IMG/VR virus record: IMGVR_UViG_3300047289_000015
Location: 1-39,487 of that record
From: a virus
Reading direction: 5' to 3' (one strand)
Length of the DNA stretch: 39,487 nucleotides
Both the position numbers and the translations under genes were made by a program. Positions 13,449 through 39,487 of the stretch are shown in pieces. Under the pieces are notes generated by a model, which saw only the letters and a program-made list of their open reading frames with translations, did not search any database and was not told the origin of the DNA. Within the stretch, counting starts at the first letter, position 1, and every line of letters begins with the position of its first letter.

Positions 13449-13809
13449 CTTCAACTTCCTGTTCATCATTGCCAATGATGGTAGTTTCACCACCAACACC
13501 AGTGATAGTGATAGACACAGCAGGCCTACCACCACCATCTTTGTCTTTCTCGAAATGACTGATTGGTAACAACCGTTCCATAAGCAGCTTCCATGCAGCA
13601 CTCTGGTTCTTATGTTCATCATCCAACGCAGCATCATAAATCTTCTCTAACACCAGCTTGCTTTTAGGGGAGGCTAACATCCTAGCCCTATATTCAGCAA
13701 TGACAGAGGCTTCCCCTTTAGGTCTACCCAATGTCCCCGGCTTCTTCTTTTCAACAATCTCACCCTTACGGGGACGGCCTCGGCCTCTTCGTTTAATTTC
13801 TTCTGTCAT
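13426..13809 (-). CDS. Terminase small subunit candidate with AT-hooks
   Basis: This 127-aa first gene of the late operon starts with two AT-hook-like elements, RGRGRPRKG (8-16) and LGRPKG (27-32), which would bind the minor groove of AT-rich DNA. A helical middle follows (KLVLEKIYDAALDDEHKNQS), then WKLLMERLLPISHF. Position ahead of TerL and a DNA-binding N-terminus fit the small terminase that recognises phage DNA. The amino-acid pattern does not match a well-known TerS family, so the call is inferred. AAGGATAAAG precedes the ATG. Confidence 0.65.
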   Translation of the reverse strand: MTEEIKRRGRGRPRKGEIVEKKKPGTLGRPKGEASVIAEYRARMLASPKSKLVLEKIYDAALDDEHKNQSAAWKLLMERLLPISHFEKDKDGGGRPAVSITITGVGGETTIIGNDEQEVEDVSFREH

Positions 13810-13933
13810 CTTTATCCTTAAAGGGGAGATGGACGGTTATTAACATAACCCTCTTTGTTTTATAACATAACAAACAACATATAGCTATTCAGGCTGACTT
13901 CTATGGAAGACAATCAGTCGAGATTCTATGTGA

Positions 13934-14029
13934 ACATACATAGACATTCAGGACAGCTTCCTAAGTTACTTTAATGTCTAACATATTTAGTAATAATTAT
14001 AATATAATACTATCTATGTCTATGTATGT
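13934..14029 (-). repeat. 14-bp inverted repeat in the late leader
   Basis: ACATACATAGACAT (13934-13947) is the exact reverse complement of 14016-14029, with 68 bases between. Both arms fall inside the roughly 240-nt leader of the late transcript and could pair in the RNA. Confidence 0.75.
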
Positions 14030-14055
14030 CATCCTTAGTTCCTTACATAGTTTCT

Positions 14056-14084
14056 ATTATAGCATACTTTAATGCATTTGTCAA
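14056..14084 (-). promoter_or_regulatory. Perfect sigma70 late promoter with extended -10
   Basis: On the minus strand TTGACA (14084-14079) and TATAAT (14061-14056) are spaced by 17 bases, and TGC just before TATAAT adds an extended -10. It drives the late operon (13809 onward) through a leader of about 240 bases. Confidence 0.9.
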
Positions 14085-14116
14085 GCACTATTTAACCTGT
14101 CCCCAATTATTTATAT

Positions 14117-14148
14117 GTTATCCACAGAAAAGCTATAGTTATCAACAG
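14117..14148 (+). promoter_or_regulatory. Pair of DnaA-box-like direct repeats
   Basis: GTTATCCACAG (14117-14127) and GTTATCAACAG (14138-14148) differ at one base and are 21 bases apart, two helical turns. The first contains TTATCCACA, a consensus DnaA box. The same 9-mer also occurs in at least four coding sites of this genome, so spacing and context carry the argument. Confidence 0.5.
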
Positions 14149-14251
14149 GTTAGCTAGTGAGTACTAACTTATTTATTGCTTTCTTTTTTGGTACTTTTTT
14201 GTATCTGGAAGGGTTCCGCTATAGCTTCGTAGCATTTTACCCTCCCCCGGG

Positions 14252-14325
14252 GTACTCATTTAGTACTACCCTTGCATTGGGAAGTAGTACCTATGGTGTA
14301 CTGGATGTGTGTACATGAAAAGTAC
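14252..14325. repeat. Phased GTAC-N7-GTAC array
   Basis: Three copies of two GTAC palindromes separated by 7 bases lie at 14252-14266, 14287-14301 and 14311-14325. Further single GTAC sites occur at 14161, 14191 and 14346. Steps between sites are 11, 24, 11, 13, 11 and 24 bases, so they lie near one helical face. This looks like a protein-binding array (iterons or operators). Confidence 0.6.
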
Positions 14326-14405
14326 CCCATAAAGCTACTACCCAAGTACTACATTCCATCCATAAGTTACTACCTAGTTACTAAGGGAAAACACCTAAGC
14401 TGCCA

Positions 14406-14585
14406 CAATGTGAAACCTTACAGCCATGTAAGCAAATCTGCACCAATGTGGTGAATGTGCGAGAAGCAAGCACCAATGCTGTGCATAGGGCAAGAAACGT
14501 GCCAAGAAATGCACCACAATGGACACCATGCCTTGGAAACAAAAGTATTACAATGCCATGTTATATAACCCATAAGTATACAATG
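14406..14585 (+). repeat. Iterated CAATG motif
   Basis: CAATG occurs at 14406, 14444, 14474, 14517, 14551 and 14581, with steps of 30 to 43 bases. Three copies lie in GCACCAATG or GCACCACAATG contexts and two in TACAATGCCA. The pattern resembles degenerate iterons upstream of the early promoter, but no protein is known to bind it. Confidence 0.4.
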
Positions 14586-14704
14586 CCAACTAAAACTATA
14601 CCTATAAGTGTTACAAAAACCAAGCTGGCATGAGTCCTGCTATATATAATGGAGACAGTGGAAATAATACCCTACTATCTCAAAGGGTTATAGAATGATG
14701 ATAG

Positions 14705-14730
14705 TTGACAGATTAAAATCATGCTATAAT
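14705..14730 (+). promoter_or_regulatory. Early promoter with extended -10
   Basis: TGCTATAAT (14722-14730) is a perfect extended -10. TTGACA lies at 14705-14710 but only 14 bases upstream, shorter than the optimal 17, so the extended -10 may do most of the work. It would start transcription near 14737, about 50 bases before the first early gene. Confidence 0.75.
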
Positions 14731-14751
14731 TCACTCAAGTTAGTAGCACTG

Positions 14752-14769
14752 GGTTACTAGCTAGTTACC
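14752..14769. promoter_or_regulatory. Palindromic leader element, possible operator
   Basis: GGTTACTAGCTAGTTACC is a near-palindrome (two mismatched positions, perfect 10-bp core). It lies between the early promoter and the ribosome site of the first early gene. Similar elements occur at 15451, 17604, 20475 and 22193. Confidence 0.45.
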
Positions 14770-14786
14770 AAGAAAAGGAAACGACA

Positions 14787-15356
14787 ATGACTAAGAAACT
14801 AAAAGAGCCAGTGACACCACGGGCAATCGGTGCGGCCTTCGCCAGTGAACAGGCGGCAATCGGTGCAAAACTGATTGACACTCTCAAGCAAACGATCAGC
14901 GCTTACAGTGTTGATCAACCCGCAGAACTGGCTGAGTTGGTAGAGGGTTACGGTGAACAGGTGAAGGGCTTATACAATGCCAACACTGCCAAGGTGAGAA
15001 AATCAGAATTTAAGAAAGTGGTTGATCATGCTAGCAAAGCAGAGACCCGTAAGGTGTTGTTTAATATTATTGACACCTACGAATCAGTTCAAAGCCTAGT
15101 TAAAGACCTTCGTGCCCTTGAAAGTGGCTCAAAGGTGATTGACGATGAGGGCAAATTGGCAAAGGCTGAAAAGCCCGAAACCGAAAAGAGCGACAATGAC
15201 GAACCAGAGACCGTGACAATCGAAGTTGGCATGAGTCAGCCAAGCATGATAGAGGCCCTTGAATTGATTATGCAAAGTGCATATGATGCTGGGTATATCA
15301 AGGCCGCTGACCTCTTGCAACAGGCAATGGCTAGCATTGGCAAGGGTGAAAAGTGA
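14787..15356 (+). CDS. First early protein, function unknown
   Basis: The 189-aa product is helical and acidic in its C-terminal half, with a Lys/Glu linker (about 117-140, KAEKPETEKSDNDEPETV) between an N-terminal helical domain and a short C-terminal domain (MIEALELIMQSAYDAG). No known family is recognised. AAGGAAACGACA precedes the start. As the first gene behind the early promoter it is a candidate host-takeover or anti-defence factor. Its codons look richer in GC third positions than neighbouring genes. Its own promoter region is shared with no other gene. Confidence 0.8.
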   Translation: MTKKLKEPVTPRAIGAAFASEQAAIGAKLIDTLKQTISAYSVDQPAELAELVEGYGEQVKGLYNANTAKVRKSEFKKVVDHASKAETRKVLFNIIDTYESVQSLVKDLRALESGSKVIDDEGKLAKAEKPETEKSDNDEPETVTIEVGMSQPSMIEALELIMQSAYDAGYIKAADLLQQAMASIGKGEK

Positions 15357-15377
15357 GCAAAGGGAAAACGGGAGAGG

Positions 15378-15407
15378 TTGACAAGCCTCTCTCCCCTGAT
15401 GTATACT
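15378..15407 (+). promoter_or_regulatory. Sigma70-like early promoter
   Basis: TTGACA (15378-15383) and TATACT (15402-15407, one mismatch) are 18 bases apart, shortly after the first early gene. GAGAGG/CCTCTC arms (15373-15390) flank the -35, so a hairpin ending the upstream transcript may overlap the promoter. It would drive the gene at 15486 and those after it. Confidence 0.6.
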
Positions 15408-15450
15408 GGCTTTACCAGTTGGAAGCATGTTGTCAAGCATGTTTCTTCGT

Positions 15451-15468
15451 GGTAACTAGTTAGTAACT
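15451..15468. promoter_or_regulatory. Palindromic leader element, possible operator
   Basis: GGTAACTAGTTAGTAACT sits between the promoter at 15378 and the ribosome site of the gene at 15486. It resembles the element at 14752 and holds the same relative position, downstream of a promoter and upstream of a start codon. Confidence 0.4.
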
Positions 15469-15485
15469 TTTTGAAGGATTTTTAA

Positions 15486-15737
15486 ATGTTTGATTTTGTC
15501 AAGAGTTTTTTTGTGGCTCGTAAAAACACACAAAACACCATTGGTAGGTTTGTCACAGTGTATGCCGCTGGTGTCCCACACAATGGCAAGATTGTTTCAG
15601 CTGGGTTTTTCCGTGTAGGAGTGAAGCTGGCAAAATGTGGTGAAATTGTGTACATCAAGCCCACTTTGGTAGCACGTGTCCATCGTGACAAGAAGCGTTT
15701 GGTTACACGCAAGCAACCAGATGCCATTGCAATTTGA
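15486..15737 (+). CDS. Small basic early protein, function unknown
   Basis: The 83-aa, Lys/Arg-rich protein (MFDFVKSFFVARKNTQNT at its start) looks like a small beta-rich nucleic-acid-binding fold in its middle (VTVYAAGVPHNGKIVSAGFF). No family is recognised. The start follows GAAGGA at good spacing. It comes after a promoter and a palindromic element and before a hairpin (15748-15777, ATGTAAGG pairing with CCTTACGT). Confidence 0.75.
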   Translation: MFDFVKSFFVARKNTQNTIGRFVTVYAAGVPHNGKIVSAGFFRVGVKLAKCGEIVYIKPTLVARVHRDKKRLVTRKQPDAIAI

Positions 15738-16779: not shown

Positions 16780-17016
16780 ATGACAAAAGTTTTAGTAGAT
16801 GCTGAGGCATTAAAACGTGTGTTGAACTACATCATTGACGAGGAGGCTGAAGACTATCGACAATGTGAGATTGACGGCTGGTCATATGATGAGCTAAAAC
16901 ACCACATTTATATGTCCATTGAACGACTTGAGATTGACTTTTTGAAGGGTCAAACAATGCCATGTTTTGACCACAACCCACTAGACAGTTTCCCTACAAT
17001 TTGGAGCAAGACATGA
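16780..17016 (+). CDS. Small acidic helical early protein, function unknown
   Basis: The 78-aa product is helical, with WSYDELKHHIYMSIERLEID in its middle. The ATG at 16780 follows GGAGAGC, the same ribosome site used by the gene before it. The stop overlaps the next start (ATGA). No domain is recognised. Confidence 0.72.
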   Translation: MTKVLVDAEALKRVLNYIIDEEAEDYRQCEIDGWSYDELKHHIYMSIERLEIDFLKGQTMPCFDHNPLDSFPTIWSKT

Positions 17017-17387
17017 AAGTGTTTGTATATTTCAACCTACACAAGAAATGTTTTTCTGTGAAGGCATTAGATGGTGAGAAAAAGGGCAAAGTTGTACAAC
17101 ACACAGACAATGTTGTCCTGCTTTTGCCTGAATTCAAGGTGTCAGAGGCTGGCAGGCAACGTGTCATACGTGAGAAGCGTAAGAACGTACATGCTGGTGT
17201 TGCTGGTTGGCTTGATGTTTTTGATTGTCCTATGAACAAAGACTATTACACACAAGTCAGATACAACCCATACAAATATTCGTCTTTTGTTACCAATGAC
17301 GAGACACCTGTGCATAATGGCATGGTTGCCCATTTGACAGTGACAAACAAAGTGCCTAAGATTGAGGCTTATTTACAAGGAGAATGA
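17013..17387 (+). CDS. Conserved phage early protein, function unknown
   Basis: The 124-aa product has the pattern MKVFVYFNLHKKCFSVKALD, then RVIREKRKNVHAGVAGWLD, RYNPYKYSSFV and VHNGMVAHLTV. I recall this layout from small proteins in many enterobacterial and environmental phages, where no role is assigned. The ATG at 17013 has GGAGC upstream; a TTG four codons earlier is less likely. It overlaps the previous stop by 4 bases. Confidence 0.75.
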   Translation: MKVFVYFNLHKKCFSVKALDGEKKGKVVQHTDNVVLLLPEFKVSEAGRQRVIREKRKNVHAGVAGWLDVFDCPMNKDYYTQVRYNPYKYSSFVTNDETPVHNGMVAHLTVTNKVPKIEAYLQGE

Positions 17388-17388
17388 C

Positions 17389-17619
17389 ATGCAGACAATT
17401 TATAACCCAACCTATGAGCTTGTCTCATATCAAGGTATTCCATTCATGGTGGCTATTGACACAATCACTGTCAACAATTATGACTATTACACTGGTGTTG
17501 AGTATGAGGAGGAAGTCCCTTATGTTGAGAGTGTCTTGATGGGTGGACATGAGATGATTGATTTGTTAACAGAAGAAGTTGTTGACGACTTGCTTAAACT
17601 AGCGGTTACTAGCGAGTAA
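17389..17619 (+). CDS. Small acidic early protein, function unknown
   Basis: The 76-aa product is rich in Tyr, Glu and Val (DYYTGVEYEEEVPYVESVLM) and unrecognised. AAGGAGAATGAC precedes the ATG at 17389. Its last codons form the left half of the palindromic element at 17604-17621. Confidence 0.72.
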   Translation: MQTIYNPTYELVSYQGIPFMVAIDTITVNNYDYYTGVEYEEEVPYVESVLMGGHEMIDLLTEEVVDDLLKLAVTSE

Positions 17620-17621
17620 CC
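17604..17621. promoter_or_regulatory. Palindromic element GGTTACT-N4-AGTAACC
   Basis: GGTTACTAGCGAGTAACC has perfect 7-bp inverted arms around 4 bases. It overlaps the end of the upstream gene and lies about 50 bases before the promoter at 17673. It belongs to the same motif group as 14752 and 15451. Confidence 0.45.
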
Positions 17622-17687
17622 ATGAAGATTGTTTTAGCCATCTGTTTATATCTGTTGTTTTATTTGCTCCTGTTGACAAGTCATTGA
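17622..17687 (+). CDS. Possible 21-aa hydrophobic peptide
   Basis: ATG at 17622 opens a 21-residue frame that is nearly all hydrophobic (MKIVLAICLYLLFYLLLLTS). It has no good ribosome site, and the -35 of the next promoter lies inside it, so it may be chance. Confidence 0.25.
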   Translation: MKIVLAICLYLLFYLLLLTSH

Positions 17688-18823: not shown

Positions 18824-20381
18824 CGGCTTATCAATTAACGAAGACGGAAGCACCTATTGCTTTGTCTGTAACACACACACTAAGGCTAACAAAATGATTG
18901 AGGCACCCATGCCATACACCCCGTTGAAAGAGATCAACCAAGAGGCTGTAAATGCCCTTCGTGCCACCTTTCATAGCTTGCCTACCCCTGCCATTGGTAG
19001 CCGCCGTATTAGCAAAGCAACAGTGGAACGCTATGGTGTTGTTGCTGACACTACACACATCTTGTTTCCCTATTACAAAGAAGAGAAGTTGTTTGCTGCA
19101 AAGAAGCGTTCCATTGCAGGCAAAGACTTTCAAACTGTTGGTGAATGGAAAGGCACTGGCTTGTTTGGTCAGCAGCTGTTCACCAAGGGTGGTAAATATT
19201 TAACCATTGTTGAGGGTGAGTTTGATGCATTGGCTGTGTATCAAATGCTTGGCAGCAAGTGGCCTGTTGTTTCCATTCGTAATGGTGCAGGTGGTGCAGC
19301 TAAGGATTGCAAGGAGCAATACGAGTGGCTGTCTTCCTTTGAGAACATTGTCATTTGTTTTGATGGTGATGATGCTGGACAGCAGGCAGCTAAGCAGGTT
19401 GCTTCTTTGTTTGCTGGTAAGGCAAAGACATTCAAGCCTGTCGAGGGATACAAGGATGGATGTGACTTCCTTGTTGCTGGTAAAGAGAAGGAGTTCATTG
19501 ATCGTTGGTGGGCAGCAGAGCGTGTTGTCCCTGATGGTATTGTCCCTGCCTCCACCCTATGGGAGAGCGTGTCTAAGCCGTTGGATAAGGCAGAGGTGTC
19601 CTATCCATACGAAGGCCTTAACAAGCTAACCTATGGCATCCGTAAGGGTGAGCTGGTTACAGTGACAGCAGGCTCAGGCTTAGGCAAGAGTCAGTTTTTA
19701 CGTGAAGTTGTATGGCACATCTTGAACAAGACCAATGACAACATTGGCTTGATGTTCTTAGAAGAGAGTGTTCGTAAGACAGGCCTCTCGTTGATGAGCT
19801 TGGCTGCTAATAAACCTTTGCATCTACCAGACTGTGATGCAACTGAACAGGAAAAACGTGATGCTTTTGACGCAACTCTTGGCAGTGACCGCCTTTATAT
19901 GTTCGACCATTTTGGTAGTACTAACATTGAGAACATCATCAAGCGAGTCGAAGAATTTTCAGTTGCTTTTGGCTGTGGCTATGTATTTCTTGACCATGTA
20001 TCCATTGTTGTGAGCAGTCAAGAGAATGGTGATGAACGTAAAGCATTGGACATGGTGATGACAGAGCTTCGTACCTTGGTTCAGAAGACAGGCATTAGCC
20101 TCATCATTGTGTCCCACTTGAAGCGTCCTTCTGACAAAGGACATGAGGAAGGTGCAGCTACATCACTGGCTCAGCTTCGTGGCTCAGGCTCCATTGCTCA
20201 GCTGTCTGACATGGTGCTTGGCTTGGAGCGTAATGGTCAGGCAGAGGATGAGACAGAACGTAACACCACCAAGGTGAGGGTGTTGAAGAATCGTTTCAGT
20301 GGCATCACTGGCCCAGCATGTAAGCTGTTGTATAATAAACATACAGGAAGGATGACAGAGCGTGACGAAGAAGCCCTTTAA
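18774..20381 (+). CDS. T7-like primase-helicase
   Basis: The 535-aa replicative protein begins with a zinc finger (Cys10, Cys13, Cys29, Cys32) that reads the priming site. A TOPRIM primase core follows, with VEGEFDAL (147-154) and the acidic FDGDD (196-200). A DnaB/RecA-type helicase has Walker A GSGLGKS (300-306), FLEES (328-332) and FLDHVSIVV. It unwinds the fork and makes primers for the phage polymerase, as T7 gp4 does (566 aa). GAGGAAG precedes the ATG. Confidence 0.94.
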   Translation: MAFVKTHQPCPSCESSDGLSINEDGSTYCFVCNTHTKANKMIEAPMPYTPLKEINQEAVNALRATFHSLPTPAIGSRRISKATVERYGVVADTTHILFPYYKEEKLFAAKKRSIAGKDFQTVGEWKGTGLFGQQLFTKGGKYLTIVEGEFDALAVYQMLGSKWPVVSIRNGAGGAAKDCKEQYEWLSSFENIVICFDGDDAGQQAAKQVASLFAGKAKTFKPVEGYKDGCDFLVAGKEKEFIDRWWAAERVVPDGIVPASTLWESVSKPLDKAEVSYPYEGLNKLTYGIRKGELVTVTAGSGLGKSQFLREVVWHILNKTNDNIGLMFLEESVRKTGLSLMSLAANKPLHLPDCDATEQEKRDAFDATLGSDRLYMFDHFGSTNIENIIKRVEEFSVAFGCGYVFLDHVSIVVSSQENGDERKALDMVMTELRTLVQKTGISLIIVSHLKRPSDKGHEEGAATSLAQLRGSGSIAQLSDMVLGLERNGQAEDETERNTTKVRVLKNRFSGITGPACKLLYNKHTGRMTERDEEAL

Positions 20382-20526
20382 AGAAGACACATCATGGCCC
20401 TTCCCTTCCAATCTCCCTGCTAAGACAATGCATGGGGTTGAGAGGACAGACAAGGATGGAAACAAATATGTCAAGGTAACTACCAAGTTACTTGTTCTAC
20501 GAAAGAAGAAGGGAACGGCTTCATGA
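20362..20526 (+). CDS. 54-aa basic protein (GTG start), function unknown
   Basis: The GTG at 20362 opens a 54-codon frame (TKKPFKEDTSWPFPSNLPAK near its start) that overlaps the primase-helicase end by 20 bases and ends in an ATGA overlap with the next gene. The product is Lys-rich at its end. GGAAGG lies upstream at a slightly long spacing. The tight overlaps support it, but the start is uncertain. Confidence 0.6.
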   Translation: MTKKPFKEDTSWPFPSNLPAKTMHGVERTDKDGNKYVKVTTKLLVLRKKKGTAS

Positions 20527-21536: not shown

Positions 21537-23323
21537 AACTCTATCTAGACATTGAAACAACAACAACTCACGACAAGATTTGGTGTTGCTTCACCTATGA
21601 TGAAACCAATGGATATGTATGTCACACAAAGCCGGATACACTCACACCCTTAATCGCAAACTCCGAAACAGTGATCGCACACAACTTGATAGGCTTCGAT
21701 GGGCCAGTGCTCAAGAAGTGTTGGGGAGTGAAGATACCAGCGAAGAAAGCGAAAGATACCTTGATCTTGTCTCGTCTATACAATCCAAATATAGACGGAG
21801 GCCACAGCTTGAAAGCATGGGGCGAAAGAGTGGGAGAGAAGAAGATTGATTATGAACAACGATGGAAAGAGCTGGGCTTAGAAGGCAACTGCTATGACAA
21901 CCCTTCTCTTCCATTGATGTTTGAGTATTGTGAACAAGACGTAGCTGTTCTTGTTAAGGTGGAGCAGCTCATTGATAAGATGCTAGACCAAGACAAGTTC
22001 TCTCCTGAGTGTCGCAAGCTTGAGCATGATGTTGCAATCATCATACAGAAACAACATGAGCATGGGTTTAAACTTGACATTCAGAAAGCTCAGGGCCTAT
22101 TGGCAACTCTTAGTGGTAAGATGGTGGATATTGAAAATCAATTACAAACTATCTTCCCTCCTGTCATCGAAGAGATGAAGAAGCCAGCCTACTGGTTACT
22201 AGGTAGTTACCAAGCAGAGACAAAGACAGAGCTAAAGACTGTACTCAAGGCTGCTGGTCTCAAGCCTTCTCTTGCTGATGAAGCTGTTGCTGGGCCTATG
22301 AAAACTAAGAGCATCCCTTTCAACCCCGGCTCTCGACAACAGATTGCTGAGCGGTTGCAAGGACTTGGTGTTAAGTTCTCTAAGACAACAGACAAAGGCT
22401 CCATCATTGTTGATGAGAAGGTGTTAGAGAACATTGATCTGCCAGAAGCTAAGGCTCTGCTTGAATATCTGATGTTGCAGAAACGTGTAGCTCAGGTGTC
22501 TAGCTGGCTTGAGGAAGTGGGAGAAGATGGACGTGTACATGGACGAGTGAACACCAATGGTGCTGTCACTGGACGCATGACACACAGCTCTCCTAACATG
22601 GCTCAAGTTCCTAACAGTGGTAGTGTGTATGGCCCTGAGTGTCGTGAGCTTTGGACAGTGGACAAAGACAATGTGTTGGTTGGTGCAGATGCTAGTGGCT
22701 TAGAGCTGCGTATGTTGGCACATTACATGAAGGATGATGGCTATGTCAAAACAGTATGTGAAGGAAGCAGCAAAGACGGTACAGATGTACACACAGTTAA
22801 CCAACGAGCTGCTGGACTTGCTACAAGAGACGCAGCAAAGACATTCATCTATGCCTTCCTCTATGGTGCAGGAGATGCAAAGATTGGAAGCATTGTGGGA
22901 GGAAGCTCTGTTCAAGGTGCAAAACTTAAGGCTAAGTTCCTTGAGCAAACACCAGCCCTGAATGTTCTAATCAAACGTGTTCATGCAGCAGCTGACCAAG
23001 GCTTTGTGCGGGGCTTAGATGGTAGGAAGATATGGGTACGTAGTTCTCATGCTGCCCTTAACAGTCTGCTTCAAGGGGCTGGTGCTATTGTCATGAAGAA
23101 AGCGTTGGTACTTCTTAGCAACCACCTACATAAACAAAAGATTGTGCATGGTTTCTGTGCTAATGTACATGACGAATGGCAGATTGAAACAAAGAAACAA
23201 TATGCTGATGTTGTAGGCAAGCTTGCTGTACAATCTATCGAAGAGGCAGGCAAGGAACTAGGTTTGTTCTGCCCTGTATCTGGTGAATATAATGTTGGCT
23301 CTAACTGGAAGGAAACACATTGA
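21533..23323 (+). CDS. Family A DNA polymerase, T7-like
   Basis: The 596-aa polymerase has a 3'-5' exonuclease domain with Asp6 and Glu8 (YLDIETT), HNLIGFD (50-56) and YCEQD (132-136). The polymerase domain has motif A with Asp386 (GADASGLELR), motif B RDAAKTFIYAFLYGAG (432-447, Lys436 and Tyr440) and motif C VHDEW (545-549). It replicates the phage genome with the primase-helicase. It starts at GTG, overlapping the upstream stop, with GGAG at good spacing. It is shorter than T7 gp5 (704 aa), mainly through reduced thumb or linker regions. Confidence 0.95.
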   Translation: MKLYLDIETTTTHDKIWCCFTYDETNGYVCHTKPDTLTPLIANSETVIAHNLIGFDGPVLKKCWGVKIPAKKAKDTLILSRLYNPNIDGGHSLKAWGERVGEKKIDYEQRWKELGLEGNCYDNPSLPLMFEYCEQDVAVLVKVEQLIDKMLDQDKFSPECRKLEHDVAIIIQKQHEHGFKLDIQKAQGLLATLSGKMVDIENQLQTIFPPVIEEMKKPAYWLLGSYQAETKTELKTVLKAAGLKPSLADEAVAGPMKTKSIPFNPGSRQQIAERLQGLGVKFSKTTDKGSIIVDEKVLENIDLPEAKALLEYLMLQKRVAQVSSWLEEVGEDGRVHGRVNTNGAVTGRMTHSSPNMAQVPNSGSVYGPECRELWTVDKDNVLVGADASGLELRMLAHYMKDDGYVKTVCEGSSKDGTDVHTVNQRAAGLATRDAAKTFIYAFLYGAGDAKIGSIVGGSSVQGAKLKAKFLEQTPALNVLIKRVHAAADQGFVRGLDGRKIWVRSSHAALNSLLQGAGAIVMKKALVLLSNHLHKQKIVHGFCANVHDEWQIETKKQYADVVGKLAVQSIEEAGKELGLFCPVSGEYNVGSNWKETH

Positions 23324-24017: not shown

Positions 24018-24706
24018 TGATTGGCCTTGTAGACGGAGACATGATGTGCTATCGCATCGCCTTTGCCTGCAAGGATGAGACAGAGAAGGTGGCTATCAAA
24101 ACGATGGCTACCTTCTTGGAAGAAGTCTTAATGACACAGCTAGACTTGAATGAATGGGAAGTGTTCCTAACAGGGAAGACAAACTTTCGTAACAAGATAG
24201 CTGTGACTGTTCCTTACAAGGGTAATAGGAAAGATGTTGAGAAACCAGCACACCTAGAAATCTTACGTAACTATCTAGTAACCGCATGGGCTGCTACTAT
24301 CAGTGATGGTGAAGAAGCAGATGATGTTATTGCTATTCGTGCAACAGAACTTGGTGATGAATCAATCATCATTTCCTTAGACAAAGACTTTGATCAGGTA
24401 CAAGGATGGCATTACAATTTTGTGAAACAGAAAAAGTATTATGTATCCGCAGAGGAAGGACTTCGATTCTTTTACAAGCAGATATTGATGGGCGACAAGG
24501 CAGACAACATTGTGGGCATCAAGGGAGTGGGGCCTGTAAAGGCAGAGAAGATGCTTGCAAAAGCTACAACCCCAGAAAGCCTGTATGCAGTGTGCTTGGA
24601 GGCTCTGGGCGCAGAACGAACACTTGAGAATGGACAACTACTATGGCTACGAAGACAACCAAATCAACTGTGGCAGGCCCCTCTTACCTCAGTTGCTTCT
24701 ACTTAG
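24017..24706 (+). CDS. 5'-3' exonuclease, T7 gp6-like
   Basis: The 229-aa protein has the FEN/PIN acidic pattern: VDGD (Asp6, Asp8), EEADD (99-103), LDKDFD (121-126) and GDKAD (159-163), then a helix-hairpin-helix VGIKGVGPVKAEKML. It removes RNA primers and degrades host DNA. The last 64 bases overlap the next gene in another frame. It is shorter than T7 gp6 (300 aa) but has all expected metal ligands. Confidence 0.87.
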   Translation: MIGLVDGDMMCYRIAFACKDETEKVAIKTMATFLEEVLMTQLDLNEWEVFLTGKTNFRNKIAVTVPYKGNRKDVEKPAHLEILRNYLVTAWAATISDGEEADDVIAIRATELGDESIIISLDKDFDQVQGWHYNFVKQKKYYVSAEEGLRFFYKQILMGDKADNIVGIKGVGPVKAEKMLAKATTPESLYAVCLEALGAERTLENGQLLWLRRQPNQLWQAPLTSVAST

Positions 24707-24963: not shown

Positions 24964-25363
24964 AAGCTTTGTTGTCTCTGCTCTACGTACAGCAACACGT
25001 AGGTGGCCTCCTAAGTACAAGGCTTTGAAAGAAGCGTATGCAGGACGCAAGACCAACAAGAAAACAAATAAGCTGGCTATGCACTACAAGTGTGCATGTT
25101 GCAAGAAAGAGTTTGTAGCAGCTGATGTACAGGTAGATCACATTCTTCCTGTTGTTAACACCAAGACAGGCTTCACAACATGGGAAGAATATATAAACAA
25201 TATGTTCTGTGAGAAAGAAAACCTTCAAGTGTTGTGTAAGCCTTGTCATTCAATCAAGACACAAGAAGAGAAAGAAGAGAGGAAAGAACATGGCAAGACC
25301 AAAGGGCAGCAAGAACAAGCCAAGCCTAGAGCTACAAGAAAGCGAACCAAAGCAGCTAACTAA
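24881..25363 (+). CDS. HNH endonuclease
   Basis: The 160-aa product has GEWTPARFRSFVVSALRTAT, CACCKK, VDHILPV and a second pair VLCKPCHSIKT, the HNH pattern with zinc-binding cysteines. It has a Lys/Arg-rich tail. It resembles HNH proteins in T7-like replication regions that may replace endonuclease I or act in homing. The ATG at 24881 has only a weak, distant GGGAG; start is uncertain. Overlaps both neighbours by dozens of bases. Confidence 0.78.
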   Translation: MNEKLKPLETSSTKRLYNCGEWTPARFRSFVVSALRTATRRWPPKYKALKEAYAGRKTNKKTNKLAMHYKCACCKKEFVAADVQVDHILPVVNTKTGFTTWEEYINNMFCEKENLQVLCKPCHSIKTQEEKEERKEHGKTKGQQEQAKPRATRKRTKAAN

Positions 25364-25607
25364 AACCCTCTATCTGGTAAACTATTGGGTTCCATTCCCA
25401 GCCAGTAAGTATGGTGGGTTACAGGCAGTGCTTGCCCTTGATGATGATGAGTGTTATGAACTGATCAAGAAGTATAGTGATGACATGGGTATCACTCGTT
25501 ATCAGAATGACTACGAGGAACTTATCAAGGCACGTATCAAGAAGGCAACACGCTATGAAATCAAGGGAGACAATCCCTCTGGTATCGTTAGGAGTTTTAC
25601 AACATGA
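25290..25607 (+). CDS. Small protein with AT-hook-like start
   Basis: The 105-aa product begins MARPKGSKNKPSLE, similar to an AT-hook, then a domain with YWVPFPASKYGGLQAVLALD and a helical region ending PSGIVRSF. No family is recognised. AGAGGAAAG precedes the ATG, which lies 74 bases inside the HNH gene. It may bind DNA. Confidence 0.7.
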   Translation: MARPKGSKNKPSLELQESEPKQLTKTLYLVNYWVPFPASKYGGLQAVLALDDDECYELIKKYSDDMGITRYQNDYEELIKARIKKATRYEIKGDNPSGIVRSFTT

Positions 25608-26661: not shown

Positions 26662-26738
26662 CTGCCCTTAGCTCAAACGGAGAGAGCAACGCCCTTCTAA
26701 GGCGTAGGTTGTTGGTTCGACTCCAACAGGGCAGGCCA
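26662..26738 (+). tRNA. tRNA-Arg (anticodon TCT)
   Basis: A full cloverleaf folds: acceptor CTGCCCT with AGGGCAG, D-stem GCTC/GAGC, anticodon stem ACGCC/GGCGT with loop CTTCTAA, T-stem GTTGG/CCAAC with loop TTCGACT, discriminator G and an encoded CCA. Anticodon TCT reads AGA, a codon common in this AT-rich phage and rarer in GC-rich proteobacterial hosts. Confidence 0.95.
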
Positions 26739-32562: not shown

Positions 32563-34632
32563 TTATAAACAAGTACGTCCGGGAGTAGCAAAACCTTTTA
32601 CTTCTTTCCCTTGACTAATACTATTATACGCTAATTTAAAAGCATTCAGCTGATCAGATGCTCTAGTTCTTTGTCCTTGGAAGATAGACATAACACCAAG
32701 AGGAACCTGTGAACGATGCATAATGGTTTGTTCTACCTCTGGTGTTAGTTGACCAAGACTTCTCAATCTGTTATACTCATCAATCTGAGCACCAAGGAAA
32801 GCCTGAGCTTCTTTGTATTGAGGCATGAACGCTGCAATCTCTTCTCTGTTCCAGCTCTTGTCAGCATTCTGTAATGCCCAATCAAGAACACCACCTTCGT
32901 CTGCTGTCATACGTGCTGCTTGCTTCTCGCCCAACGCAGCTGTAGCTTCAAGACTACCACCCATTCTGCCTCTACCACGCAGCTCTCTGCCTGTCCTGCC
33001 TGTAGCAGCAACAGCCTTCATGTGCATGTCATTAATAGCCTTATCAACAGACACAGGGTCTGCATCAATACGACCACGGAAAGCTGGGTCAAACACCTTC
33101 TCTGGGTTTGTTTCAAAAGGAACATCACCAGCAAGCTTTAGGTAGGGGTCAGTACGCATAGAGCCTACAGAACCAGCCATGCCTGCTCTGTTTAATGGGT
33201 CAGCAGCAGGTGCTTTACCTAGAGCAGCATTAGCTTCTTCCATTGTTCTAAAGCCATTACGCTCTAAGACAGCCTGCACTTCTGGTGTCACCTGTTGTGT
33301 AGAAACAACACTAGCTCTAGGAGCAGGAGACAAAGCAGCAGGAGGAACTTCACCTTCTCTGGTGATCACTGGTTGCTCAGCAAAGCGAGGAGCTGTTTTT
33401 GTTTCCACCTGTGTTAGAGGCTCAGGTAACTTGCCAGTAACTTGGTTAAGTTTAATCTCTTGGTCTTGAGCAAGTTTAGACTTGAGCATATCAATCTCTG
33501 CCTGCTTAGCCTTGATGTCATTGTCTAATGAATAGCCTTTGAACAGCGAAGCAACTTGAGGAGCTTCCTTAACATCAACAACCTTCTTCCCTTGGAATAG
33601 GGCAGGGGTTTGTTTTGTTTGTTGTGCTTTAGTCGGAGACACCAAGCCTGTCATCTTTGATGGGAGATTATCAGCTGCCTGTGTTGGAGCCTTAGTCTCT
33701 CCTTGCAACAAAGAAGCAACTTGTTTCTCTGCTGTCTCTGTTACATCAACTGTTGTTCTTTCTTCTGACAGCTTTGTAATGTCTCTCTCAAGAGCAGCAA
33801 CACGTTGGTCAATGAGGGTTTTCTCTAAGACAGACAGAGGTTTATAATCATACTGTGCATCTCTGAACACACGCTCATTAGTCATGGGTTCATCAATTGC
33901 TTTAGCAACATCTGACAACGCAGCATCCGTAGCCTGCTTTCCTTGAGGAATGTCAGACAAAGGAACATCAGCCTTCTTTGTTAAATAATTAACAAGAGAC
34001 TCAGCACCCTTACCAAGAATACCTCCCAGAGCAAAGCCAGCAGCAGTGCCTACAGCAGCACCCTTAGCACGATCTGTAGAGAAGAAACCAGTGTCACCTC
34101 CTTCTTTAAGCACAGGCTCTAGGAAGCCACCAAAGGCCCCTTGTGCAGCACCTTGTCTAGCCATTGTTGCAGCCAATGTAGCACCACGTAGAGGAGCCAC
34201 AGCGACAGCAGGAAGGTTGATAGGGTCAGCAATGGCTCCAGCAAACTCAGCTGCACCACCAATGTATGGATTGTTAGCAGAAGCAATTTCAGCAGCCTGT
34301 CTCTCAGCACGTAGACGTTCTGTATCAGCAACACCTGCCATCTGAGCAATGCCCTTGATGCTGCTACCAGCACTCTCAATAAAGCGTTTAACACCAGCAG
34401 AGAATCCTGTGTTGCCTGTCAGGTGTGCTAAGATTTGTTGGTCTGTATAGCCTTCAGCTCTAGCACCAGCAATGTCAAACCCCTTCTTACCTGCAAGGTA
34501 GTCTGCAATTTGAGAAGGAGAATAGCCTTCTTGTAAAGCTCCAGTAAGATCAAAGCCACCAGTAGGAGCCACATCTGTAGCCCCCACTGATGACATCATT
34601 TGCTCTTCTGGACTGAGCATTAGTTCAGCCAT
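32563..34632 (-). CDS. Internal virion / ejection protein with 25-residue repeats
   Basis: The 689-aa product has two adjacent ~25-residue repeats near residues 26-75 (FDLTGALQEGYSPSQIADYL and FDIAGARAEGYTDQQILAHL), seen in some phage virion proteins. Small-residue-rich helices follow (IGGAAEFAGAIADPINLPAV; GTAAGFALGGILGKG), then a Gln/Glu/Lys coiled segment and a helical end. Such layout fits membrane-active core proteins. GGAGGTTAA precedes the ATG, which lies directly after the previous stop. The function is inferred from position. Confidence 0.7.
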   Translation of the reverse strand: MAELMLSPEEQMMSSVGATDVAPTGGFDLTGALQEGYSPSQIADYLAGKKGFDIAGARAEGYTDQQILAHLTGNTGFSAGVKRFIESAGSSIKGIAQMAGVADTERLRAERQAAEIASANNPYIGGAAEFAGAIADPINLPAVAVAPLRGATLAATMARQGAAQGAFGGFLEPVLKEGGDTGFFSTDRAKGAAVGTAAGFALGGILGKGAESLVNYLTKKADVPLSDIPQGKQATDAALSDVAKAIDEPMTNERVFRDAQYDYKPLSVLEKTLIDQRVAALERDITKLSEERTTVDVTETAEKQVASLLQGETKAPTQAADNLPSKMTGLVSPTKAQQTKQTPALFQGKKVVDVKEAPQVASLFKGYSLDNDIKAKQAEIDMLKSKLAQDQEIKLNQVTGKLPEPLTQVETKTAPRFAEQPVITREGEVPPAALSPAPRASVVSTQQVTPEVQAVLERNGFRTMEEANAALGKAPAADPLNRAGMAGSVGSMRTDPYLKLAGDVPFETNPEKVFDPAFRGRIDADPVSVDKAINDMHMKAVAATGRTGRELRGRGRMGGSLEATAALGEKQAARMTADEGGVLDWALQNADKSWNREEIAAFMPQYKEAQAFLGAQIDEYNRLRSLGQLTPEVEQTIMHRSQVPLGVMSIFQGQRTRASDQLNAFKLAYNSISQGKEVKGFATPGRTCL

Positions 34633-39256: not shown

Positions 39257-39327
39257 CTAAGTTCCTTATATGTATTATACATTATTATGTTAATAACTAT
39301 TACTCTTGTTATGTACTTGTTAGTACT

Positions 39328-39356
39328 ATTATAACAGCTATTGCTTATTTTGTCAA
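39328..39356 (-). promoter_or_regulatory. Perfect sigma70 promoter for the tail genes (right copy)
   Basis: Same element as at 65-93: TTGACA (39356-39351), 17 bases, TATAAT (39333-39328). Here its target is visible, the tail adaptor gene starting at 39256. Confidence 0.87.
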
Positions 39357-39367
39357 GTGTTTTTTTT

Positions 39368-39487
39368 TTACCACTTAACTTTATCTGTCACTGCTTCACA
39401 GATTTCTATAAAGTAGTCCTGAGAAAACTGTTGTTTAGCCATGTTTACATCCTTATGTACAAGCTGAACATTCCCAACAACGTAGCC
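39368..39487 (-). CDS. HNH endonuclease, 3' part cut by the contig end
   Basis: This is the end of the same gene seen whole at 104-607. About 39 C-terminal residues (VVGNVQLVHKDVNMAKQQF and onward) and the stop codon are present; the 5' part lies beyond the end. It is a duplicate created by the terminal repeat, not a second gene. Confidence 0.85.
   Translation of the reverse strand, partial: GYVVGNVQLVHKDVNMAKQQFSQDYFIEICEAVTDKVKW

Follow-up and report, generated by a model that had tools for sequence, protein, structure and literature searches.

The viral record analysed here, called the window (the whole stretch of 39,487 bp), carries three closely spaced GTAC-N7-GTAC pairs in non-coding DNA, which raises the question of what kind of protein they would serve. 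A sequence-only reading of the window had proposed a binding array for a phage replication or regulatory protein. A regulatory array is still the likeliest reading, but its core element is not GTAC-N7-GTAC: the signal seen across the genome is GTWACT-N4-AGTWAC, which that reading had not mentioned.

The divergent control region and its GTAC pairs

The first 224 bases of the record recur at its end (1–224 and 39264–39487, differing by a single indel in a run of T), and the genome is therefore probably complete, circular or terminally redundant. Its gene set is of podovirus type, i.e., a terminase, an SU10-like portal, a primase/helicase, a family A DNA polymerase and an exonuclease, and further genes encode ThyX, a metallophosphoesterase and a ribonucleotide reductase that has a class II insertion domain. 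Among the phage proteins scanned with Pfam, none was identified as an integrase, a helix-turn-helix protein or a phage RNA polymerase. A tRNA-Arg with the anticodon TCT is located at 26662–26738, and none of 84,980 cellular genomes contains an exact match to its sequence. The early region includes homologues of mycobacteriophage L5 gp88 (PF17338, 15824–16513) and gp82 (PF25735, 17001–17387).

The early genes run rightward from 14,787 and the late genes leftward from 13,809. Between them, as defined by this gene layout, is a non-coding, divergent control region of 977 bp (13810–14786, no strand), which is the only one of its kind in the genome; relatives have a homologous region of ~1 kb, and a comparison of its DNA with phage records returned no match. 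A perfect sigma-70-type promoter, TTGACA-N17-TATAAT, directed toward the late genes, is found at 14056–14084 on the minus strand and is conserved in close relatives. The early promoter region on the plus strand (14705–14730) consists of TTGACA followed by TGCTATAAT with an unusually short spacer (14), and is conserved in the close clade. A second repeat family, comprising GCACCAAT..GGTG / GTGC dyads, is located to the right of the GTAC array at 14440–14453, 14470–14484 and 14511–14524, and is repeated in the wider clade too. Also conserved in relatives is a third repeat, degenerate in sequence (AAGYRYTACA) and in many cases continued by ATGCC, which has several copies at 14344–14610. In one related locus (L011), an apparent tRNA-like sequence was observed on the minus strand inside the control region, close to the first late gene.

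A search for GTAC-N7-GTAC, together with comparison with relatives, gave pair 1 at 14252–14266 (GTACTCATTTAGTAC), pair 2 at 14287–14301 (GTACCTATGGTGTAC) and pair 3 at 14311–14325 (GTACATGAAAAGTAC), none of them assigned a strand. These are the three pairs that had been reported, and the single GTAC reported at 14161, 14191 and 14346 are all present as well. The last of these is contained in a TAC-N8-TAC element (14336–14349, no strand), 24 bp past pair 3. When counted over the whole window, the pairs number three, all in the array and none elsewhere, compared with a mean of 0.39 in shuffled sequence; one of 100 shuffles reached three, and shuffling the 977-bp intergenic region 5000 times never gave more than two. 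The nine GTAC within 189–195 bp are beyond chance, as the sequence-only reading had stated, with a maximum of seven both in 200 whole-genome shuffles and in 5000 shuffles of the intergenic region. The possibility that GTAC is a word enriched throughout the genome was rejected, with 115 found vs. 119.6 expected. A de novo dyad count in the close clade ranked GTA-N8-GTA, which has the 11-bp step, first, at 8.5 copies per region vs. 0.65 expected. The GTAC pairs and their clustering are real and non-random.

The sites had also been suggested to lie mostly on one DNA face. This holds within a pair, in which the step is 11 bp at 10.5 bp per turn, but the same arithmetic fails between pairs: the steps of 24 and 13 bp rotate the next pair by ~100–120 degrees, i.e., about one third of a turn, and a common helix face for the three pairs was therefore rejected.

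Five close relatives, in which the first early protein is 80–92% identical, span the control region wholly or partly. Pair 3 has both GTAC intact in all five, and its spacer is as conserved as its GTAC. Both GTAC of pair 1 are intact in three of the four close relatives that cover it (L198, L199 and L200), the fourth (L202) having GTAC-N7-CTAC, and one GTAC half of pair 2 is retained in the same 11-bp register in each of the four that cover it (L198, L199, L200 and L202). In the wider clade, the position of pair 1 is occupied by GTAC-N7-TTAC or GTAC-N7-CTAC, directly past a strongly conserved box. This box, TTTTTTGTAT..GGGTTCCGC..CCCTCCCCCGG (14194–14251, plus strand), abuts pair 1 in the window and is clade-specific; among the loci compared, it is present only in clade phages that carry the palindrome described below. 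Conservation of the GTAC spacing in related phages, the loss of which the sequence-only reading had named as counting against its array, gives a mixed outcome: the spacing is kept in the close relatives, whereas the wider relatives retain the region with no GTAC-N7-GTAC at their control-region loci, and this pattern was rejected as a clade-wide signature. Taken together, the patterns of close and wider relatives indicate that the conserved feature is the 11-bp spacing of TAC-type half-sites, GTAC being the commonest half-site form in the window genome.

The dispersed palindrome and its candidate binders

The 16-bp palindrome GTWACT-N4-AGTWAC has half-site centres 11 bp apart, the same step as that of the GTAC pairs. 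The window contains eight exact copies vs. ~0.01 expected from base frequencies, and full-length relatives contain 7–13 each, while a reversed control pattern was found in none of the genomes examined. All eight are putative operators with no strand assigned. The one nearest to the array is GTTACTACCTAGTTAC (14366–14381). Two others are located in front of early genes: GTTACTAGCTAGTTAC (14753–14768) is in the leader of E1, 18 bp ahead of the ATG with which this first early gene starts, and GTAACTAGTTAGTAAC (15452–15467) is 18 bp before E2, downstream of a promoter-like TTGACA-N18-TATACT at 15378–15407 (plus strand). Farther along the early region, GTTACTAGCGAGTAAC (17605–17620) precedes the −35 of a promoter at 17673 by ~50 bp, GTAACTACCAAGTTAC (20476–20491) follows the primase/helicase gene, GTTACTAGGTAGTTAC (22195–22210) is inside polA and GTAACTATCTAGTAAC (24267–24282) is inside the exonuclease gene, and the eighth, GTAACTTGCCAGTAAC (33426–33441), is inside a late gene.

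Mapping of the sites onto genes showed that these places recur among relatives, i.e., the leaders of E1 and E2, the vicinity of early promoters, the end of the primase gene, polA and the exonuclease gene. The palindrome is ~12–40 bp ahead of E1 in nearly all relatives checked (139 bp in G008) and 12–18 bp ahead of E2 in most genomes. The positions in the two leaders and in the exonuclease gene are common to nearly all nine palindrome-positive genomes, the exonuclease site being kept in 9/9. At the exonuclease site, every third-base change either coincides with a degenerate position of the motif or lies beyond it. Among 401 comparable six-codon windows, eight are without change at the 12 fixed positions, an event of ~2% in genomes that are related, and the constraint is therefore suggestive, not strong. 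The polA palindromes are in segments that differ between genomes. In the early operon of three genomes (G000, G008 and G009), the palindromes often appear to be ~2 kb apart. The palindrome is restricted to part of the group, with no copy in seven related records whose terminases are 65–94% identical; its absence from the closest of these (L004/L302, 94%) is weak evidence because this fragmentary record covers 16.7 kb and consists chiefly of late genes. In 73 of the 139 distinct sites the two W positions are not complementary to each other, a pattern that speaks for recognition of the DNA by a protein tolerant of A or T there, and against an RNA hairpin. The palindrome is very probably a real protein-binding site.

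A related element is found near the left end of the window. The sequence-only reading had pointed to a GTAC-N6-GTAC over the start site of the tail promoter and had suggested that the same protein might act there. The element exists at 50–63 (no strand), its fuller form being GTACT-N4-AGTAC, and a perfect promoter on the minus strand, TTGACA-N17-TATAAT (TTGACA at 93, TATAAT ending at 65), has its −10 immediately upstream. The element is seen twice in the record only because the ends overlap by 224 bp. Two close relatives (G001 and G002) retain the half-sites and the spacing with an altered centre, and action of the same protein at this promoter is plausible.

The relation between the GTAC pairs and the palindrome was examined by counting TAC/GTA pairs with the 11-bp step. 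Palindrome-positive phages have 3.7 vs. 0.99 expected (7 loci), a count to which the palindromes themselves add, and phages without the palindrome have 0.89 vs. 1.02 expected (38 loci). A homologous site also switches type between relatives, from GTTACTACCTAGTTAC in the window to GTACTACCAAGCTAC in L199. However, wider relatives bear the palindrome without GTAC-N7-GTAC, and one protein for both types of site is thus not proven. Sharing of one protein by the GTAC pairs and the palindrome may be put at slightly below an even call. Both types were also observed in an unrelated 35-kb phage (G020, locus L300), which was chosen from the search for GTAC arrays and hence selected for having them; three GTTACTNNNNAGTAAC and one GTAC-N7-GTAC are located within ~300 bp (19605–19890) upstream of its terminase genes.

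Three proteins, i.e., E1, E2 and the protein encoded at 25209–25607, are present in all nine palindrome-positive genomes and in none of the seven negative records. E1 (14787–15356, plus strand; 189 aa) is a clade-specific protein predicted to be helical, a candidate target or binder. It has 29 loci in viral contigs and no relatives in 84,980 cellular genomes or 50,697 phage records, and a fold search against PDB and BFVD gave nothing significant. E2 (15486–15737, plus strand; 83 aa), also clade-specific, is predicted to combine a helix with a small beta-barrel. Its low-confidence model weakly resembles PWWP, KOW and Sm barrels, which are nucleic-acid-binding folds, making E2 a candidate nucleic-acid-binding protein. 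More distant loci fetched by the E1 and E2 profiles bear the palindrome too. Pfam detected no helix-turn-helix or known repressor domain in the proteins scanned. The gp82-like protein (17001–17387) was rejected as a necessary binder, as it was not found in the site-bearing G002. E1 and E2 are the candidates best linked to the sites for a phage-encoded binder, through co-occurrence, and may be targets rather than binders. These two small clade-specific proteins are directly testable for binding.

Operators, origin iterons or host-regulator sites

The best reading, held at about even odds, is that the array contributes to a cluster of several operators within the divergent control region, belonging to a dispersed-operator system that regulates early transcription. 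The broader statement that its role is transcriptional control rather than replication is somewhat favoured. In such a system, a protein with sequence specificity, probably dimeric or a higher multimer, would bind GT(W)AC half-sites with centres 11 bp apart. Its best sites would be the GTWACT-N4-AGTWAC palindromes, which are spread through the early operon and found at a few late positions, and the GTAC pairs would serve as variants of these, perhaps bound less strongly, through which extra protein is loaded at the control region. The bound protein would throttle the early promoters and, at sites within the operon, halt host RNA polymerase during elongation, and the outcome would be early expression that is damped as infection proceeds. 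While the over-representation of the sites, their restriction to one clade, their conservation and their placement at promoters and start codons are observed, we infer that a single protein may serve both types of site, that it may be phage-encoded and that its effect would be repressive.

The main rival reading is that the GTAC pairs are origin iterons bound by a phage initiator, with the palindromes forming a separate regulatory system. A scan of viral contigs for three close GTAC-N7-GTAC returned 114 stretches, and a CATG control returned 32; such triples are inside lambda-O-like initiator genes of unrelated phages in 29/114 contigs vs. 0/32 for the control, and arrays of this type are therefore probably origin iterons in some phages. 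In the window region itself, a DnaA box is accompanied by a near match (TTATCCACA and TTATCAACA; 14118–14147, plus strand), extra copies occurring in L199 and L202, and the region combines AT-rich DNA with the two further repeat families and with a cumulative GC-skew minimum at ~14 kb. However, this minimum coincides with the change in gene direction, which predicts such a minimum too, and in the wider clade no DnaA-like boxes were observed. Moreover, a profile of five O-like proteins identified no such protein in the window, whose array is non-coding and outside any initiator gene, and among phages the 11-bp pairs go with the palindrome. An origin built on the GTAC pairs is thus regarded as unlikely here, albeit worth keeping in view. 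The recurrent GTAC-N7-GTAC arrays in O-like genes, as likely origin iterons, would constitute a class of phage origins of their own that is easy to check. These arrays consist of GTACCGAATCGGTAC-type palindromes, examples being those at L163:6317-7054, L158:11344-12174, L152:1275-2132, L129:2171-3007 and L106:1614-2753.

The sites could instead bind a host regulator, which the phage uses or soaks up. There is precedent in SrpA, a host protein that acts at palindromes in the phage K5 genome (PMC5945682), and both the same palindrome in the unrelated G020 and the lack of a helix-turn-helix protein among the scanned phage proteins would fit such a reading. However, relatives with terminases 65–78% identical are without the sites, though their hosts may differ, and in the records compared the presence of E1 and E2 coincides without exception with that of the sites, leaving a host regulator improbable. 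The SrpA palindromes themselves, NTATC-N(0,9)-GATAN, were rejected as a match to the present sites. A role at the RNA level, with the palindromes and GTAC elements working as attenuators or as hairpins in leaders, would account for the several sites between a promoter and a start codon, but it is very hard to reconcile with arms that vary independently at the W positions, with sites within coding genes, with an Rfam search that matched only the tRNA and with the lack of any terminator-like site at 13700–15500; it is given hardly any credence.

To return to dispersed operators, a temperate lifestyle is not indicated by any integrase detectable by Pfam in the proteins scanned, among which a gene may have been missed. 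In its fullest form, the operator reading describes an uncultured, apparently lytic podovirus clade, lacking an integrase or a known repressor, with dispersed operators about every 2 kb of the early operon and in essential genes, with a new non-helix-turn-helix binder (E1 or E2) and with the GTAC array as a loading cluster. This complete picture is speculative and rather doubtful as a whole.

Relation to known dispersed-operator systems

A few temperate phages are known to have dispersed operators, which in these phages keep prophages silent. A conserved occurrence of the same layout throughout a clade in which lysogeny is not evident would suggest that it can also set the timing of a lytic cycle dependent on host RNA polymerase. 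The temperate Streptomyces phage phiC31 has repressor isoforms, and its repressor sites are inverted repeats near early promoters, with a sequence unlike that of the sites here. It is among the systems in which 18–30 repressor sites are dispersed over the genome (PMC4557955). The stoperators of L5 and other Cluster A phages are many copies of a short site, with positions that are conserved among relatives and near early promoters, and a roadblock is the model of action of the L5 repressor gp71 (PMC5712189, PMC4557955). The present system is similar to that of L5 in having one short site dispersed over the genome at conserved positions and near early promoters. However, the L5 sites are 13 bp long, asymmetric, oriented and mostly intergenic, number ~24 per genome and serve a known repressor of a temperate phage, whereas those described here are 16-bp palindromes, number 7–13 per genome and are in several cases inside genes, in phages in which no repressor or integrase was found.

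The SPBRE of SP-beta was first computed in several promoter regions and later shown to be bound by the master repressor MrpR (PMC10516654), and it resembles the present sites as a repeated element first recognised by computation in promoter regions. It is, however, a 15-bp element of a temperate phage with a recombinase-fold repressor, and no such protein was seen here. The iterons of the lambda origin, located inside gene O, likewise form an array of short inverted repeats, but they are ~18–19 bp long and differ in sequence from the array here (PMC7466680), which is non-coding and in a genome that encodes no O-like protein. The site sequence, its symmetry, the intragenic sites and the lack of an integrase or recognised repressor are the reasons for which the present system is not filed in the L5, phiC31 or SP-beta families. 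By analogy, its functional layout appears most like the dispersed operators of these three phages, a kind of layout that is already known and of which the present one appears to be a new variant.
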